Source: a virus. Taken from it: DNA of 24,067 nt. Positions 7,854 through 15,549 of this stretch are shown piece by piece. Made by a program: the position numbers and the translations under genes. Each line of letters begins with the position of its first letter. The first letter of the stretch is position 1. The DNA is taken from IMG/VR virus record IMGVR_UViG_3300021093_000355, positions 1 through 24,067 of that record. The stretch is one strand, 5' to 3'. The notes under the pieces were generated by a model that saw only the letters and a program-made list of their open reading frames with translations, had not been told where the DNA came from and made no database searches.

Positions 7854-7887
7854 AAATATATTAGAAGAATATCTTTATTTAGATTTA
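7852..7887. promoter_or_regulatory. Divergent intergenic gap with T4-late-like motifs on both strands
   Basis: Only 34 bases separate gp4 (-) from the gp54-like gene (+). ATAAATA at 7852-7858 on the plus strand matches the T4 late -10 core and would start transcripts about 25 bases before ATG 7888. On the minus strand CTAAATAA (complement of 7875-7882) is in the equivalent position for gp4. T4-like late promoters have no -35 box, which fits the tiny gap. This rests on motif matching alone. Confidence 0.55.
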
Positions 7888-8550
7888 ATGTCCACCTTAA
7901 CTAAAATACGAAGTTTATTTGAGACAGACCAAGGCGCTTCTTTATCTAATGAATATGAAGTGGAAGTTATACCTAATAGTACAAGAAATTCTCAATTATT
8001 AACTAATTTTGCTGAATTGAAATTCACTAATTTCAACGTTGCTGATGGTGCATACAAGAATATGATGTTACTATGTGATGAAGCATCATTGCCTGGTCAA
8101 TTTGCTGCCACGCAAGAAATTGACGGTTTGTATACAGGTAGACTTATTCAATATCCCCATGCAAGACTTTATAATGATTTTAGTTTAAGTTTTATTATGA
8201 CTAATAACGAATTGCCAATTAAATTTTTTGAAACTTGGTTTTACACCATTTTTCCTGAAAGAAGATTAAATGATGGTACAGCATTAGAGTATGTCAATAA
8301 GACATCAAGAGCAGAAAGAACAAATATTACTACTTTAAGTTATTATGATAATATCACAATGGATATTAAGGTAAAAAAGTTTAATAAAACAGCATATGCT
8401 GCCAATGGTAGAGTCACCTCTGAACATACCATGTACAGAGCATATCCATATAGTGTTGAGAGCACACCATTGGCATATGGACCATCGGTGCTAAATAAAT
8501 TAAGAGTGCAATTTCGTTATGAAAAGCACGTACAAGTTTATAAAACATGA
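7888..8550 (+). CDS. Tail-tube-like baseplate protein, probable gp54 tube initiator
   Basis: 220 aa from ATG 7888; in-frame starts further upstream lie within gp4 on the other strand and before the likely promoter. The centre has the tail-tube pattern: LPGQFAATQEIDGLYTGR, then IQYPHARLYNDFSLSFIMTN and LPIKFFETWFYTIFPE, and a final strand KLRVQFRYEKHVQVYK. This is the gp19/gp54 tube fold. Its place beside gp48 and gp26, and not next to the sheath gene, favours gp54, the initiator seated on the gp48 cap, although T4 gp54 is longer (320 aa). The gp54 name is an inference; the tube-like fold is better supported. Confidence 0.68.
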   Translation: MSTLTKIRSLFETDQGASLSNEYEVEVIPNSTRNSQLLTNFAELKFTNFNVADGAYKNMMLLCDEASLPGQFAATQEIDGLYTGRLIQYPHARLYNDFSLSFIMTNNELPIKFFETWFYTIFPERRLNDGTALEYVNKTSRAERTNITTLSYYDNITMDIKVKKFNKTAYAANGRVTSEHTMYRAYPYSVESTPLAYGPSVLNKLRVQFRYEKHVQVYKT

Positions 8551-8566: not shown

Positions 8567-9280
8567 ATGTCATTGCCTAAGATTAATGTTCCTTTGCATG
8601 AACTGACTATCCCATCAACTGGTAAGAAAATTAAATATAGACCATTTGTGGTAAAAGAGGAAAAACTTCTTTTACTTGCAATGGAATCAGAAGATACAAA
8701 TGATATTACAAATACTATCATCCAAATAATTAATAATTGTGTTCAATCAAAAATAGATGTAGAAGAATTATCTACTTTTGATGTAGAATATATTTTTTTA
8801 AATATTAGATCTAAGTCTGTTGGAGAAGTATTGGAATTTGCTATTACTTGTCCAGACGATGGCGAAACTCAAGTAGAAGTAGAAATCAATATTGATGATA
8901 TCAAAATAATAGAAGAAAAAAATCACACTAATACTGTTGATCTGGAAAACGGATATTTTATTAAGATGAAATATCCGACTATGAAGTATATTATGGAGAA
9001 AAAAAATATTGACACTAAGAGTATCATTGACAGTACATTTGAATATGCTGTTGAGTGTATTGATCAAATTTATAATGAAGAAGAGGTCTGGACTTCTGCC
9101 GATTCAACCAAAAAAGAAATGGAAGAATTTGTGGAAAACTTAAATACAAAACAATATCAAAAACTTCAAGACTTTTTTAATACTATGCCTAGATTAAAGC
9201 ATAATGTTAAAATTACAAATCCAAAGACTGGTGTTGAAAGTGAGGTGACGATTGAGGGTCTCGCAAATTTTTTCGCATAG
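8567..9280 (+). CDS. 26: gp26-type baseplate hub assembly protein (zero-frame product)
   Basis: 237 aa (T4 gp26 has 208). The opening PKINVPLHELTIPSTGKKIK, then YRPFVVKEEKLLLLAMES, is the signature of the T4 baseplate gp26 family. The rest is acidic, ending in a short ITNPKTGVESEVTIEGLANFFA tail. In T4, gp26 acts with gp51 and gp28 in assembling the gp5-gp27-gp29 hub but is not required for the mature particle's structure in bulk. GAGG at 8552-8555 precedes the ATG. The last codons AAT TTT TTC form a -1 slippery site, so a fraction of ribosomes should make a longer fusion (see next entries). Role as a tail-assembly chaperone is inferred. Confidence 0.88.
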   Translation: MSLPKINVPLHELTIPSTGKKIKYRPFVVKEEKLLLLAMESEDTNDITNTIIQIINNCVQSKIDVEELSTFDVEYIFLNIRSKSVGEVLEFAITCPDDGETQVEVEINIDDIKIIEEKNHTNTVDLENGYFIKMKYPTMKYIMEKKNIDTKSIIDSTFEYAVECIDQIYNEEEVWTSADSTKKEMEEFVENLNTKQYQKLQDFFNTMPRLKHNVKITNPKTGVESEVTIEGLANFFA

Positions 9281-9306
9281 CAGTTTTCCAGAATAATCTG
9301 GAGAAC
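9268..9306 (+). promoter_or_regulatory. Programmed -1 ribosomal frameshift signal at the end of gp26
   Basis: The heptamer T TTT TTC occupies 9268-9274, with the zero-frame codons exactly AAT-TTT-TTC, which permits tandem -1 slippage. The zero-frame stop TAG follows at 9278-9280. After an 8-base spacer, GTTTTCCAGA (9283-9292) pairs with TCTGGAGAAC (9297-9306), ten pairs with one U-G wobble and an ATAA loop. Slippery site, spacer and stem match the known layout of stimulated -1 frameshifting, as in the lambda gpG/gpGT and related tail genes. Not tested experimentally here. Confidence 0.85.
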
Positions 9307-9456
9307 TATTATCGGTTAAATTTTAATCTCATGCAGCATCATAAATATTCTTTGACAGAAATAGAAGAAATGATACCATGGGAACGTGATGTTTACGTTC
9401 AATTGTTAGTTGAATTTATTCAAAAAGAAAACGCACGTAGAGCAGCACAACAATAA
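9274..9456 (+). CDS. Frameshift extension of gp26 (gp51-type small frame)
   Basis: After slippage at 9274 the -1 frame reads 60 codons to TAA 9454-9456, giving a fusion of about 296 aa. The extension contains KYSLTEIEEMIPWERDVYVQ, resembling the aromatic-acidic PWE/YE..(A/I) motif common in the second frame of phage tail-assembly chaperones. If it were an independent gene it would start at ATG 9331 (41 aa) with no Shine-Dalgarno sequence, and the open frame upstream of that ATG back to the slippery site would be unexplained. Small proteins at this place are usually named gp51 (baseplate hub assembly) in cyanophages; T4 gp51 is much longer, so I do not assert orthology. Its stop overlaps the next start (TAATG). 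Confidence 0.75.
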   Translation, partial: RIAVFQNNLENYYRLNFNLMQHHKYSLTEIEEMIPWERDVYVQLLVEFIQKENARRAAQQ

Positions 9457-11927
9457 TGCCAGCAACATCAGGAGCTAATCCAAGTCCACCAGGAGGTTCT
9501 AATCCTCCTGCGACTCCTCCTGCAACACAATCAGGTGTTACTCCACAGACTCAAACACCTCAAACACCTCAATCTCCTGGGTTGGATCCTAGTCCAAATC
9601 CTATTGTAAAAATTCAATCTGTTAATCCTCCACTGACTCCTGATCAAGTCATAGGGTTATATGATACGCCAGTTCCAAAATCTTATGTCCCCACTATAAA
9701 ACTCCAGGACATAAAGATTCCTAATGTTAAAAACAAAACACTTCAATCGCATCTGAAAGCAATTGAAGCAAAGATGATTGCAACTGAAAAGTTGATGAAG
9801 GATATTGTAAAACTTCAGAGACTGCAAATTATTACTGAAAAAGAAGTATATGAAAGGAAAAAAGAATTATATCAAAATACTTTTGAGGAATATTTACTTG
9901 ATAAAACAGTTGCATTTGAAAATGAAGATGACAAAAATAAAGATTGTACTTGTATTAATTTACCAAAACTTGCTGCAGCAGTTCCCGCAGCACCAGTAGG
10001 AGGAGCACCAACACCTCCAACACCACCAACACCACCCGATCCCCCTGCGCCCGCTCCCCCCAAGGCACAAACACGTACAAGAACACCAATATCTCAACCA
10101 TCAATTCCGTCCACTGAAGTTCCTGATTTTGTTAAGCGAGGGGCGGAGAGAACTGATAAACTTATGAGCATGATGGGTTTACTTGGCAAAAGTGCCCACC
10201 CAGCCCTCCAGGTGTTGGGTCAAACTGTTGGTGCTGCGGGAACGGCAGGATTCAGTCAAGCTTGGGCAAAAGCATGGTATCAACACTACATGAATGAAGA
10301 AAGAGAATATATTAAATATAAAATTAAACAAATTTTGAAACTTAAAGGAAAGGCAAGAGTTGGCGAATTAAACAATATAAAAATTGCAAAAGAGAAAGCA
10401 GCACAACATATTCAAACACCACAGGCACAAAAGGGATCGTACAATCCTAGTAAATATTGGAGAGAAGCACATCCATCCGCGGCTGGCGGAAGAAAATTAG
10501 AAGAATTTTTTCAAAGTATTCAAGGTGGTGGTGCAGAAATGAATCAATTTCTTGCCCAGAGTGATTACAATATTACCAGTAATATATTAAATGGTTTTGG
10601 TACTGATTATGGTGAAATGAGAACACGAACTACAGAAGAAGTTATAAAACGCACTAAATTTGATCCCAAACACATTACAGCCGAGAACCAAACTTTAGAT
10701 CAAACAGGTATTGACAAATTACAGAAACATGATCCAGGTATGCCTGCATCTCCGCCAGCACCTGCAGCAACTTCACCTAATAATTTTGCTTCTGGCGGTA
10801 TCCCTGGAGGTGGAGATTTAAAACTTTATGATGCTAAACCACAAACTGTACTAACGCCAGGATATAAACCATCTCCAGTCGTAAATCCTGCTGTTGACGG
10901 TGCTTGGGTACGTGGATCCCGCCAGTCAGCAAAAATAGCATCAAGTATTCCAGTAGGACCACATACTCCACTGCCACATCCAGGTTATGTGAGACCTCAA
11001 GGTGGATATATTCCAAGACCTAATTTAAGAGGTATGCCAGGTCCGTTGGGTAACCCTATGCCATGGGGATGGCAACCTACTTTACTTTCCAAAGGCGCTG
11101 TAGTATCTTCTGCTGCAAAAGCTTCTGGTGGGTTAACAGATTTAGAATTATATCATGCTCAGTCGCAAAATTATTTTAGAAAAGTTTCTAATGATATTCC
11201 CAAATATGGAGCTGGTGCTATGCTCAAATTCCTACCAGCTGGTATTAATTTGGCAAAACGAGGATTTAATGCGATAAGGGGTATTGCTGGTAAAGGCGGC
11301 GCTGGTAAAGGCGGCGCTGGTAAAGGCGGCGCTGGTGGATGGATGGGAGATCCTAATATGGTTAATCCATTTAGAAATCCAAAGCAATGGTGGAATTTAG
11401 GTAGAAATCAACGCATTCCAAATGAATCAACTGCAAGACTTAGAACCTTAATTAAAGATGATTTACAGCAAGTTGGTAAATTTAAAACTCCTACAGGTTA
11501 TAAAGGATTTAATCCTTGGTGGTCTTTCACAAAAGGTTTAGGAACTGGACCAACACCAATACAGAGACAACTTGTTGAAAGAATACTTCCAAGATTTGCA
11601 GGTAGAGTAATATCTGCACCTGTACTAGGAGACATGATTTCCCCACAAGGAACAAGTTATTATGATCAATTGTCTGGACCTAATGCTTACTACAATGCTC
11701 CTGGTTATAAAGGTCCAAGACCATCCGAAAGATTAGAAACTGCTCAAAACAATTTGAGAAATAATAATTCAAATAAAGCACCTAGTGTTGTTCCATTACC
11801 TCCAAATTACATTCAAATTCCAAGTAAAAAAGCAAAAGAAACTAAAGAAAATAAGACTATGTTAACACCTCCAGGTGTTGATTCTTCACGTACTATCTTT
11901 AGTATAGAGAGTGGTAATTATAAATGA
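9456..11927 (+). CDS. Large Pro-rich structural protein, candidate tape-measure/hub protein, 823 aa
   Basis: 823 aa, starting in a TAATG overlap with the recoded upstream frame. In order: Pro/Thr/Gln-rich N-terminus (residues 1-55), a helical charged segment (about 85-165, with KAIEAKMIATEKLMKDIVKL), a second Pro-rich hinge (about 180-215), Ala/Gly-rich hydrophobic helices near 240-280, a SGGI motif at residues 446-449, a long Gly/Pro-rich region, and three tandem AGKGG repeats from residue 611. No enzymatic motif is visible. The gene directly after a frameshifted chaperone pair is normally the tape measure in long-tailed phages, so that is my leading hypothesis; a cyanophage-specific hub or structural protein is the alternative. 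Its stop overlaps the next gene (ATGA at 11924-11927). Confidence 0.7.
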   Translation: MPATSGANPSPPGGSNPPATPPATQSGVTPQTQTPQTPQSPGLDPSPNPIVKIQSVNPPLTPDQVIGLYDTPVPKSYVPTIKLQDIKIPNVKNKTLQSHLKAIEAKMIATEKLMKDIVKLQRLQIITEKEVYERKKELYQNTFEEYLLDKTVAFENEDDKNKDCTCINLPKLAAAVPAAPVGGAPTPPTPPTPPDPPAPAPPKAQTRTRTPISQPSIPSTEVPDFVKRGAERTDKLMSMMGLLGKSAHPALQVLGQTVGAAGTAGFSQAWAKAWYQHYMNEEREYIKYKIKQILKLKGKARVGELNNIKIAKEKAAQHIQTPQAQKGSYNPSKYWREAHPSAAGGRKLEEFFQSIQGGGAEMNQFLAQSDYNITSNILNGFGTDYGEMRTRTTEEVIKRTKFDPKHITAENQTLDQTGIDKLQKHDPGMPASPPAPAATSPNNFASGGIPGGGDLKLYDAKPQTVLTPGYKPSPVVNPAVDGAWVRGSRQSAKIASSIPVGPHTPLPHPGYVRPQGGYIPRPNLRGMPGPLGNPMPWGWQPTLLSKGAVVSSAAKASGGLTDLELYHAQSQNYFRKVSNDIPKYGAGAMLKFLPAGINLAKRGFNAIRGIAGKGGAGKGGAGKGGAGGWMGDPNMVNPFRNPKQWWNLGRNQRIPNESTARLRTLIKDDLQQVGKFKTPTGYKGFNPWWSFTKGLGTGPTPIQRQLVERILPRFAGRVISAPVLGDMISPQGTSYYDQLSGPNAYYNAPGYKGPRPSERLETAQNNLRNNNSNKAPSVVPLPPNYIQIPSKKAKETKENKTMLTPPGVDSSRTIFSIESGNYK
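11286..11336 (+). repeat. Three tandem 15-bp units encoding AGKGG repeats
   Basis: The unit GCTGGTAAAGGCGGC occurs three times without mismatch (11286-11300, 11301-11315, 11316-11330), followed by a partial copy. It is in frame and encodes AGKGG x3 within the 823-aa protein. The perfect identity and the high G+C against an A+T-rich surrounding suggest recent slippage expansion. The copy number may vary between relatives. Confidence 0.9.
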
Positions 11928-13924
11928 TAAAACCAAAAAGTAGAATTGTACCTAAATTACAAAAAAGTAATTCTCCAAAATTTTCTATAGTTAATCAAAA
12001 AGTTATTCCTTTGATGGGAATAACTCATCATAATATACCTCAAATTGTTGATTTTAGAAAAGAAAAAATATTACCATTACCTACAGTACAAAAGATATCT
12101 CGTCATTATAAGTATACAAATAATTTCTATAAATTCATTAAAAGAATTGATCGTTATTTAGATAGTTTACAATACTTTTTGACTCGTATGAAAAAATTAT
12201 ACGAGTTATCTATTATTCAAAAAAAAATAATTCTTCACTCGGAAAAATCTGATCAACTATTGCGAACTTATAGAGCAAAAAGAGAAGTAAAAAAATTAAA
12301 AGAAGAAAAAGAAAAAAAATCTAGACCATCAATTAATTTGGGTGAAGATAAAGATCTTATAGGACTTCTTGCACTTTCTTTAGGTCTTATCGGTCGTAAA
12401 TCAGAACCATCGGCATCTGGTGGTGATGTTGCGTATGAACCAGTCTCTGGACAATTAATACCTAAAGGAAAAACAAATGCTGACATGATTAGTGGTTATC
12501 CTATTTCGTCTCCATTTGGACCGAGAACAGATCCAGTAACTGGTCAACGCAACAAACACCATGGTGGTATTGATGTCGGTGTTGATATAGGTACATTATT
12601 TGCACTGAAAGTTCCATCTCAAGTTGCATACGCTGGATGGCAAGATCCCTTAAACAAGAAAAAAGGTTATGGTTTGTTGGTTGATGTATATGTTCCTACA
12701 TTAGGGAAAATGTTTAGATTCGGACATTTATCATCAACTGCTGTCAGACCTGGAGAACTTGTACCAGCAGGTAAAGTATTAGGTAAATCTGGTGACACTG
12801 GTAAATCTACAGGACCTCATTTTCATATTGAAGTTCATACTGTAAAATCTTATGGTGATGCTATCAACAAGCGAGATTATGGAACTGAACCTCCTGGTAA
12901 TTTAATGAATTATGTTGTGCTGGGTGATACAGTTAAAAATGCTGATGGTGGTATTGAAACAAGGAATATAATGGTCGGTGAAGCGGATCCAGAATTTATT
13001 ATTCCAATGAGTCAAATGCCCATGTTTATTCAAGGAATAATAGAAGAAAAAATAAAATCTCTCAATCCTTATTATGACACTACAAAAGCATCAGCAAATA
13101 TTATAAAAACTTCTTTTGGGAGTGCTGATAAAAAGTATTCTGCTGGTGCTATAATTAAAGCAACTAATATAATTGAATATCATGAAGCACTGTCTTCATT
13201 TACTCCAGGCGATAATGATTACATTAAAAAGGGATTTACTAGTGTTGGAAAAAGTAAGACTAAATGGAGTTATGTAAAGTCAAATCCAAGAAAAAATATG
13301 ATTTTTCCGTATCAAAACACTGGTGATGTTCCCACTATTGGATGGGGAACTACTTATTATTTTGATACCAATAGTAAACCAGTAACTATGAGCGATCCTC
13401 CAATTTCTTTATATCGTGCAGATGCACTTTTGAAATCGTATGTTAATAAAAATATCTTGCCTGAATACTCTAGAGAATTTAAGTATTGGAATAAGTTTAG
13501 CGATTCACAAAAAGCATCTATAATGAGTTTGGGTTATAACTTAGGTAAGTATTGGGTTTATGGCACTAACTTTTACAGATTACTGCAAGATGGTAAAATT
13601 GCTGCAGCGGCAAAAGAAATACCTAATGATATACCTGATAGAAGAGCAGAAGAACGCAGACTGTTATTAACAGGACCTCAAATTATTCTGGGTCCGAAAA
13701 CGGTAGGTGAAGGGAGAGTTGGTAGTGGAATACCATTTATTCCTCCTTTCTTGTACAACTTGTTTAATAAACCTACTACTAAAAAAACAACAAGTTTAAA
13801 TAATATTGATCCTGCAGAACAAATGGAAGTTGCCAGATCTTATAGAAATAATTTTGATTTTGCTGATACTACTAATGAAATAATTGCTTTTTACAAACCA
13901 ACTGTTTACTATCCTGAGTCATGA
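11924..13924 (+). CDS. Tail-associated murein hydrolase: M23 peptidase plus GH24-like lysozyme domain, 666 aa
   Basis: 666 aa. Residues 1-140: basic leader and a Lys/Glu coiled coil, then a short hydrophobic IGLLALSLGLIG segment. An M23/LytM peptidase follows: HxxxD zinc ligands His213 and Asp217 (HHGGIDVG), His268 in FGHLSS and HxH at 299-301 (HFHIE); these cleave peptidoglycan cross-bridges. DGGI (341-344) and VGEADPEFIIP (351-361) resemble the C-terminal motif of tape-measure proteins. Residues from about 415 form a GH24 T4-lysozyme-like domain: Glu421, then YQNTGDVPTIGWG at 463-475 with Thr471; Asn465 sits where the catalytic Asp (T4L Asp20) is expected, and the gap from Glu421 is enlarged. 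It should open the host wall during injection. 4-bp overlaps on both sides. Confidence 0.85.
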   Translation: MIKPKSRIVPKLQKSNSPKFSIVNQKVIPLMGITHHNIPQIVDFRKEKILPLPTVQKISRHYKYTNNFYKFIKRIDRYLDSLQYFLTRMKKLYELSIIQKKIILHSEKSDQLLRTYRAKREVKKLKEEKEKKSRPSINLGEDKDLIGLLALSLGLIGRKSEPSASGGDVAYEPVSGQLIPKGKTNADMISGYPISSPFGPRTDPVTGQRNKHHGGIDVGVDIGTLFALKVPSQVAYAGWQDPLNKKKGYGLLVDVYVPTLGKMFRFGHLSSTAVRPGELVPAGKVLGKSGDTGKSTGPHFHIEVHTVKSYGDAINKRDYGTEPPGNLMNYVVLGDTVKNADGGIETRNIMVGEADPEFIIPMSQMPMFIQGIIEEKIKSLNPYYDTTKASANIIKTSFGSADKKYSAGAIIKATNIIEYHEALSSFTPGDNDYIKKGFTSVGKSKTKWSYVKSNPRKNMIFPYQNTGDVPTIGWGTTYYFDTNSKPVTMSDPPISLYRADALLKSYVNKNILPEYSREFKYWNKFSDSQKASIMSLGYNLGKYWVYGTNFYRLLQDGKIAAAAKEIPNDIPDRRAEERRLLLTGPQIILGPKTVGEGRVGSGIPFIPPFLYNLFNKPTTKKTTSLNNIDPAEQMEVARSYRNNFDFADTTNEIIAFYKPTVYYPES

Positions 13925-15549
13925 TTAAACCACTTCAAAATATTATAGGTCCATTTAGTAAACCAGTAAAGATAACTGCTCTGACGAGAATGATTCCTCG
14001 TAATCGTAGGAACGTGGAAACGATTGATAGAAATTTTTATGGAATAGTACAATTAACACCAGAGATGCTTGAACTATTAGGAATAGATGAAGAGTCTTAT
14101 GTAGTTCCTAGAACAGAATTTAAAAATATAGTAGAGAAAAAAGATATTGATGATTGGTCTTATTTACTAAAAAGGTTTGATTTATTATTAAATAATTTAA
14201 TTAAATTTCTTGGTAATATAAGAAGATATAATTATCATAAAATTTTATTATCAAAACTTGAGCAAAAAGAAATTGAAGAACGTCATAATAAACTCCATGA
14301 AAAACTGTTAGAGAAAGAAGAAGATAAGAAAGTAGTTGCTAAGTCAAAACTCACAGACAAAGAAAAACTTGATAATTTAATAAATGGACTGATAGCATTA
14401 GGATTTGCTCAAGGATTGGTATCAACAAATTATGAAGATTTATCTGGTCTTGCTACTGGACCTGTTCACAAAAGAGGTGCTCAACTAGCAAAAATGTTGA
14501 TGCAAAAATATGGATTGAAAGATTTTCAAGCTGCTGCTATGGTAGGAAACTTCATTTATGAATCTGGATTAATTGCTTACAACGTTGAAAATACTAGTCC
14601 TTATGATGCAGAAGAACCATTACCACCACCTTGGGGTACACCACGGACAGGTTATGGTTGGGCACAGTGGACTGGTGGTAGATTAAATGTATTTATTGAG
14701 AAATTTCTTGGCGGTGGTCCAAATAAAAGAGGTAGAGCAGCTACAACAGATGACAACTGGAAAATGCTCACTTATGAATTAGATGGACCTTATAAAAGTG
14801 TCATTGATGGTTTGAAGACTCAAACTAATGTCACTGATGCAACAATATATGCAGAATTAAATTATGAAGGTGCATTAATTAAGGCAAATGATAAACGTAT
14901 TGCTGCAGCAAAAGGAGTTCTGAAAGAACTAAGATCACCAACCGCCACTAAGGCAAAAGGTGGAATTATGATACCAGAAATATTTAAGAAGCATACTATA
15001 CAATATGATACTGTAAATAAGACTAATATTTTATCAAACTTTATTGTTGATAGACCTACAATTATCAATGTTGCACAATATAATGAACCTTTAATTATTA
15101 TTCCTATTAAGAGACCAATCGGTATAAGTATACTAAAAACATTATTTGAAAGACCATTCAGAAGAATTGAGCAAATGTTCTTTGCTAATCAACGTAGATT
15201 AAATAGAAAAAAACCAAGTATATACAAGAAAAGTGATAGTGTAACTAACAGAACTAACAGAAATATTATTGCAAAATCTCAAACAAATGTCGGTTCTGTT
15301 TCACCATCATTCCTCTCTTCTAAATCAACAAAAACTTTACAATCATCTATTAAAAACAAAATAGAAACTGACTTTACATCTTCTAAGCAATCTGATAATA
15401 AAATTTCTAATACTATTCCTAGATTTAATTCCACTCCACCATCTGACATGTCAAAAAAGCAAAATTTTAACATGATCTCTCAAGAAACTGAAGATGTTTT
15501 TGGTCAGGATATTATTTTACTCACTCAAGACATTATTGTAACTGAGTGA
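13921..15549 (+). CDS. Tail lysozyme-domain structural protein, 542 aa
   Basis: 542 aa, again starting MIKP in an ATGA overlap, like the previous gene. Residues 1-135: leader and charged coiled coil (LLKRFDLLLNNLIKFL, KLEQKEIEERHNKLHEKLLE), then a hydrophobic LINGLIALGFAQGL segment. Residues about 185-330 match a phage tail lysozyme domain: GNFIYESGL with probable catalytic Glu214, and GYGWAQWTGGR at 244-254. KGGI follows at 346-349. The last 150 residues are Ser/Thr/Asn/Lys-rich and low complexity. It likely digests peptidoglycan at the tail tip. Its modular plan parallels the previous protein (leader, coiled coil, hydrophobic segment, hydrolase, GGI motif), suggesting duplication followed by domain exchange. 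Confidence 0.82.
   Translation: MIKPLQNIIGPFSKPVKITALTRMIPRNRRNVETIDRNFYGIVQLTPEMLELLGIDEESYVVPRTEFKNIVEKKDIDDWSYLLKRFDLLLNNLIKFLGNIRRYNYHKILLSKLEQKEIEERHNKLHEKLLEKEEDKKVVAKSKLTDKEKLDNLINGLIALGFAQGLVSTNYEDLSGLATGPVHKRGAQLAKMLMQKYGLKDFQAAAMVGNFIYESGLIAYNVENTSPYDAEEPLPPPWGTPRTGYGWAQWTGGRLNVFIEKFLGGGPNKRGRAATTDDNWKMLTYELDGPYKSVIDGLKTQTNVTDATIYAELNYEGALIKANDKRIAAAKGVLKELRSPTATKAKGGIMIPEIFKKHTIQYDTVNKTNILSNFIVDRPTIINVAQYNEPLIIIPIKRPIGISILKTLFERPFRRIEQMFFANQRRLNRKKPSIYKKSDSVTNRTNRNIIAKSQTNVGSVSPSFLSSKSTKTLQSSIKNKIETDFTSSKQSDNKISNTIPRFNSTPPSDMSKKQNFNMISQETEDVFGQDIILLTQDIIVTE

Follow-up and report, generated by a model that had tools for sequence, protein, structure and literature searches.

The tail assembly chaperones (TACs) gpG and gpGT of phage lambda are reportedly produced by way of a −1 frameshift (Levin 1993; Xu, Hendrix and Duda 2004). 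The locus described here, in a 24,067-base virus record (IMGVR_UViG_3300021093_000355; the window, to which all unlabelled coordinates refer), resembles the lambda system in that a −1 frameshift is predicted near the end of a short putative chaperone gene, in that the genes follow the order of lambda V-G-T-H (tail tube gene, then TAC-N with its extension, then a long tail gene) and in that the stop of the extension overlaps the next start, by 8 nt for lambda T/H and by 1 base in the window. It differs in having another slippery site and no detectable sequence similarity to lambda, and in belonging to a contractile-tailed, T4-like phage in which the gene is annotated as baseplate hub. A predicted −1 frameshift with a conserved poly-T run near the end of TAC-N is also described for the TACs of Vandenendeviridae and Andersonviridae, e.g. 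Adele (PMC12846349), although there the site is GTTTTT and the family is a different one. TAC genes of T4-like phages were reportedly identified by Vladimirov, Gautam and Davidson (2022, Virology 566:9-15), poly-T slippery sequences are described as known in T4-like TAC-N genes (PMC12846349, citing Vladimirov et al., 2022), and some T4-like phages are stated to have, in place of the frameshift, one gene for the short form and another for a long fusion (PMC10885494, citing Vladimirov et al., 2022). The mechanism is of a known kind (lambda-type TAC frameshifts, T4-like TACs) and not a new one, and given these statements the initial annotation of this DNA overstated its novelty. What is added here is the breadth of conservation, a covarying stem, switching of the slippery site in Ackermannviridae and the finding that the cyanophage ‘gp51’ would be the C-terminal part of a TAC and not a separate gene.

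The gp26 gene of the window (8567–9280, plus strand, as are the other window features between 7858 and 11927 given below) encodes a zero-frame product of 237 aa that matches Pfam T4_baseplate (PF12322, E 3.8e-73) and phrog_150 ‘baseplate hub’ (E 2.6e-79). Its last codons are GCA AAT TTT TTC GCA TAG, which places the heptamer T_TTT_TTC (9268–9274) in the X_XXY_YYZ phase before the zero-frame stop (TAG, 9278–9280), so that codon reading bears out the phase first proposed. The −1 frame is shut upstream by TGA at 9253–9255, 15 nt 5′ of the heptamer; read after a slip it begins CGC ATA GCA and continues for 60 codons (9274–9453) to TAA at 9454–9456, the final A of which is the first base of the next ATG (9456), again as originally described. 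The product of this extension (9274–9456 including the stop) matches phrog_634 ‘baseplate hub assembly catalyst’ (E 3.7e-27, profile positions 56–116 of 121). It matches phrog_150 as well, at that profile's C-terminal end (positions 232–276 of 282), so fused members are included in the phrog_150 profile itself. As there are 336 XXXYYYZ heptamers on both strands of the AT-rich window, the heptamer by itself carries little weight, and the element that rises above chance is its conservation among relatives.

The relatives used comprise 300 loci of gp26 in which the zero-frame stop could be read, taken from viral contig scans and annotated isolates; the set is redundant and reduces to 246 distinct junctions and 191 clusters. 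T_TTT_TTC or T_TTT_TTT is present in phase, 7–16 nt 5′ of the gp26 stop, in 299 of the 300 loci (in the one remaining locus gp26 contains a stop further upstream), and the distance from heptamer to stop is exactly the same in 282 of them. In 298 of the 299 heptamer-bearing loci the −1 frame is open for 57–69 codons where complete. The second Phe codon of the site is TTC in 187/191 cluster representatives against a background of 27%, the codon before TTT TTC/T ends in T in all 191 clusters, and elsewhere in the same genes TTT TTC encodes 3/201 Phe-Phe pairs. On codon usage alone the chance of T TTT at this place in all 191 representatives is about 10^-66, a figure that assumes independence and is to that extent overstated. 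On these sequence comparisons the case for a −1 programmed frameshift is very strong. We attach next to no credence to the view that an in-frame gp26-gp51 fusion was broken by a sequencing error or that the open frame is accidental; homopolymers are indeed error-prone (see IME-SM1 below), but the same frame relation recurs in 300 loci, in independent assemblies, in 246 distinct junctions and in named isolates, and this conservation already refutes it.

The −1 extension is found with T_TTT_TTC/T in Schizotequatrovirus (VH7D and a close relative), an Aeromonas Straboviridae phage and phiM12, and further in OLIVR5, Ochrobactrum phage OC, Melnitz and Menderavirus. Ackermannviridae (L304, L305, L308, L328–L330, L332 and L333) keep the extension with sites of the form N_NTT_TTC or N_NTT_TTT, for example G_ATT_TTC and G_GTT_TTC, the latter of which we take to be of the T7 gene 10 type. 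The two-form chaperone arrangement known from lambda would then reach marine T4-like phages, Schizotequatrovirus, Emdodecavirus, Pootjesviridae, Menderavirus and Ackermannviridae. Slippage of RNA polymerase on the T run, with insertion of a U, could in principle take the place of ribosome slippage, and runs of seven or eight T do occur at the site in a few relatives (HTVC008M, Melnitz and phiM12). We regard this as extremely improbable, as the run is held at six and its seventh base is C in 187/191 representatives even though Phe is more often encoded by TTT, the opposite of what selection for polymerase slippage would give. A structured, covarying hairpin lies downstream (see below), and Ackermannviridae retain the extension with only four or five T.

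Two loci were considered as possible departures from this pattern. In Stenotrophomonas phage IME-SM1 (L331, about 1399–1403) the run has five T, not six, and the record fuses gp26 to the wrong C-terminus; it was not retained as an exception, as the site is intact with six T in two other, closely related Menderavirus genomes, which suggests a homopolymer sequencing error. In S-SCSM1 (L004, 1481–1520) an 11-nt insertion just 3′ of the slippery site closes the −1 frame and leaves the extension in the +1/−2 frame. A +1/−2 frameshift variant was considered and set aside: relatives with 76–79% identical gp26 lack the insertion, so that an isolated mutation or an assembly error is just as likely as such a variant.

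Selection on the extension was assessed just past the gp26 stop, where extension codons 4–17 have a pN/pS of 0.209 in the −1 frame but 1.65 and 1.41 in the zero and +1 frames, respectively. It falls to 0.188 in the 63 sequences whose −1 frame contains no ATG, GTG or TTG ahead of codon 18, with ratios above 2 in the 0 and +1 frames. By these ratios the extension is under protein-coding selection, also where no separate start could produce it, and since the 63 start-less sequences (window type included) combine purifying selection with the lack of a start codon, frameshifting would be their only ordinary route to translation of these codons. Many cyanophage GenBank records present the small frame as a separate gene, gp51 or ‘hub assembly catalyst’ (it is annotated so in P-SSM2, syn9, Syn33, HTVC008M and phiM12), which would need an internal start of its own, and among the 191 representatives an ATG is found at the position equivalent to 9331 in 148 and at extension codon 4 or 7 in about 150, the latter in many other clades and not in the window. 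Such a gene is nevertheless very improbable. The ATG at 9331 is the earliest in the window extension, no ATG, GTG or TTG preceding it in the −1 frame; it leaves only 41 codons and lacks a strong Shine-Dalgarno sequence (pairing of −2.4 kcal/mol vs −6.6 kcal/mol at the gp26 start), and hence the well-placed start with Shine-Dalgarno that had been named as counter-evidence is absent. The candidate internal ATGs of relatives pair with the anti-Shine-Dalgarno sequence no better than random sites do, the same purifying selection acts on codons ahead of the first possible start, and a separate gene leaves the invariant heptamer and the preference for TTC unexplained. In all inspected records the extension is either annotated as a separate short gene or unannotated, and it is joined to gp26 in none; as the small frame corresponds to a C-terminal part only, ‘gp51’ as a separate cyanophage gene would be a misannotation. 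That many cyanophage records split off or miss this C-terminal part bears on the roles of gp26 and gp51 in baseplate assembly.

A predicted stimulatory stem-loop lies at 9282–9307, with arms at 9282–9292 and 9297–9307, an ATAA loop and a spacer of 7 nt. The stem as first noted (10 bp, 9283–9292 with 9297–9306, 8-nt spacer) is confirmed and gains an eleventh, outer A-U pair, 9282/9307. The 36 nt that follow the heptamer fold at −14.4 kcal/mol in RNAfold, and across relatives the predicted folding energy reaches its minimum directly 3′ of the heptamer (z −2.26 vs −0.26 for the control). Among 33 distinct sequences of the window clade 93.9% of stem cells are paired, compared with 39–58% in slid registers, although it should be noted that these sequences were picked partly for likeness to the window stem, which biases the 93.9% upward. 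Less affected by this choice are the two-sided changes (C-G to G-C and C-G to U-A), which amount to 28 cells, a number reached in 0 of 500 shuffles, so the compensatory changes that had been expected do occur in the window clade. A perfect stem of at least 6 bp is present downstream in 131/221 relatives. One universal stem register was also considered and was rejected, as the window's own stem is confined to a clade of about 37 sequences while in other clades the corresponding place holds a different hairpin or no evident one. The hairpin of the window is thus, to judge from covariation, real within its clade, and its exact stem is clade-specific. The conserved junction that the initial annotation expected in relatives holds for the heptamer phase, the −1 frame and coding selection in about 300 loci, but not for the exact stem.

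At the sequence level neither gp26 nor the extension matched a TAC family in searches of Pfam, NCBIfam and solved structures, and the likeness to TACs emerges from fold comparison alone. In an AlphaFold2 model built on 77 homologues from the window and contigs (pLDDT 84.6) the N-terminal approximately 85 residues of gp26 (1–87) best match HK97 gp13 (2OB9; Z 7.7, rmsd 4.3 over 84 residues), a tail assembly chaperone according to its PDB title, together with YqbN (3KLU; Z 7.4 over 85 residues), which has been described as a tail assembly chaperone (PMC9603447). Next come 5ir0 (Z 5.0) and then unrelated chains (Z 2.2 or less), and Foldseek against the PDB returned 2OB9 at an E of about 1 (1.0). 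The two chaperones differ from gp26 in sequence (about 10% identity) and in length, gp26 having some 150 further residues. With Z below 8 the similarity is good but not overwhelming, and the N-terminal region of gp26 probably has a TAC fold. The gene upstream (7858–8550) encodes a tail tube protein (PF23849, E 7e-27; phrog_45, E 7.2e-23), as would be expected next to a TAC gene. The predicted fold, the gene order and the kinship to T4 gp26/gp51 support the assignment of gp26 as a TAC, in which case the frameshift would most likely yield TAC-N and TAC-NC as in lambda G/GT.

In T4 genes 26 and 51 lie on opposite strands. The match of T4 gp26 to phrog_150 ends at profile position 235, where the frameshift falls, whereas T4 gp51 (249 aa) matches positions 13–280 of 282 plus phrog_634 and also passes Pfam T4_baseplate. 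T4 gp26 is thus homologous to the zero-frame product, and gp51, from the span of its matches, is a full-length equivalent of the predicted frameshift product; the downstream frame of the window, which had been equated with gp51, corresponds only to its C-terminal part. A single-frame, full-length gp51 was seen (at least 80% query coverage) in 1334/1339 matching records, and T4 gp51 is required for tail assembly and absent from the virion (PMC3004832). T4 retains the Phe-Phe of gp26, encoded as GAG TTC TTT, but has no heptamer. Among T-even and RB43-type phages 11 complete gp26 ends were examined; all lack the heptamer, while most still encode Phe-Phe. That these Tevenvirinae-type phages, which have a separate long gene, are heptamer-less supports the frameshift reading elsewhere. 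By homology T-even phages make the TAC pair from two separate genes, gp26 short and gp51 long, and T4, the textbook case, would be the exception in which a second gene has replaced frameshifting. The original suggestion that gp26-gp51 is the T4-family equivalent of G/GT therefore stands as regards the TAC fold, the gene order and gp26 and gp51 as short and long homologues, but does not extend to T4 itself, which lacks the frameshift. In RB43 (locus L309, 2501–3794), unlike T4, long gp51-type and short gp26-type genes are in tandem on one strand.

We consider it roughly 93% probable that the TAC gene is subject to programmed −1 ribosomal frameshifting. The reading is weakened by the closed −1 frame of S-SCSM1, by the variation of the stem's place between clades and by the early ATGs of other clades. 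We infer that most ribosomes would finish gp26 (TAC-N), stopping at TAG 9278, while the hairpin at 9282–9307 would pause some of them during decoding of TTT TTC, whereupon both tRNAs would move one base backwards and pair with TTT TTT. Translation would resume at CGC 9274 for 60 codons to give a 296-aa TAC-NC with the junction ...NFF-RIAVFQ.... The efficiency of slippage would be such that the short form is abundant and the long form rare, as for lambda gpG/gpGT; the two may coat or solubilize a protein of the tape measure or the hub and bring in tube subunits during tail and baseplate-hub assembly, and presumably neither would remain in the virion.

The gene downstream of the extension (9456–11927), in the position of lambda H after T, encodes a product of 823 aa for which the profile search gave no family match. 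In 164/176 relatives a long downstream ORF starts −20 to +3 nt from the extension stop, mostly without a Shine-Dalgarno sequence, so that only frameshifted ribosomes would terminate there and re-initiate. It is a possible, though rather doubtful, extension of the frameshift model that slippage controls, in addition, how much product the next tail gene yields; if so, a single slip would link the synthesis of TAC-NC to that of the tail protein encoded downstream. Three long genes with ATGA-type overlaps follow the extension (9456–11927, 11924–13924 and 13921–15549); matches of the endopeptidase and lysozyme type fall in the second, weak tape-measure profile matches in the second and third, and the stretch 9456–15549 is arranged as if a tape-measure/tail-lysozyme gene had been split in three.
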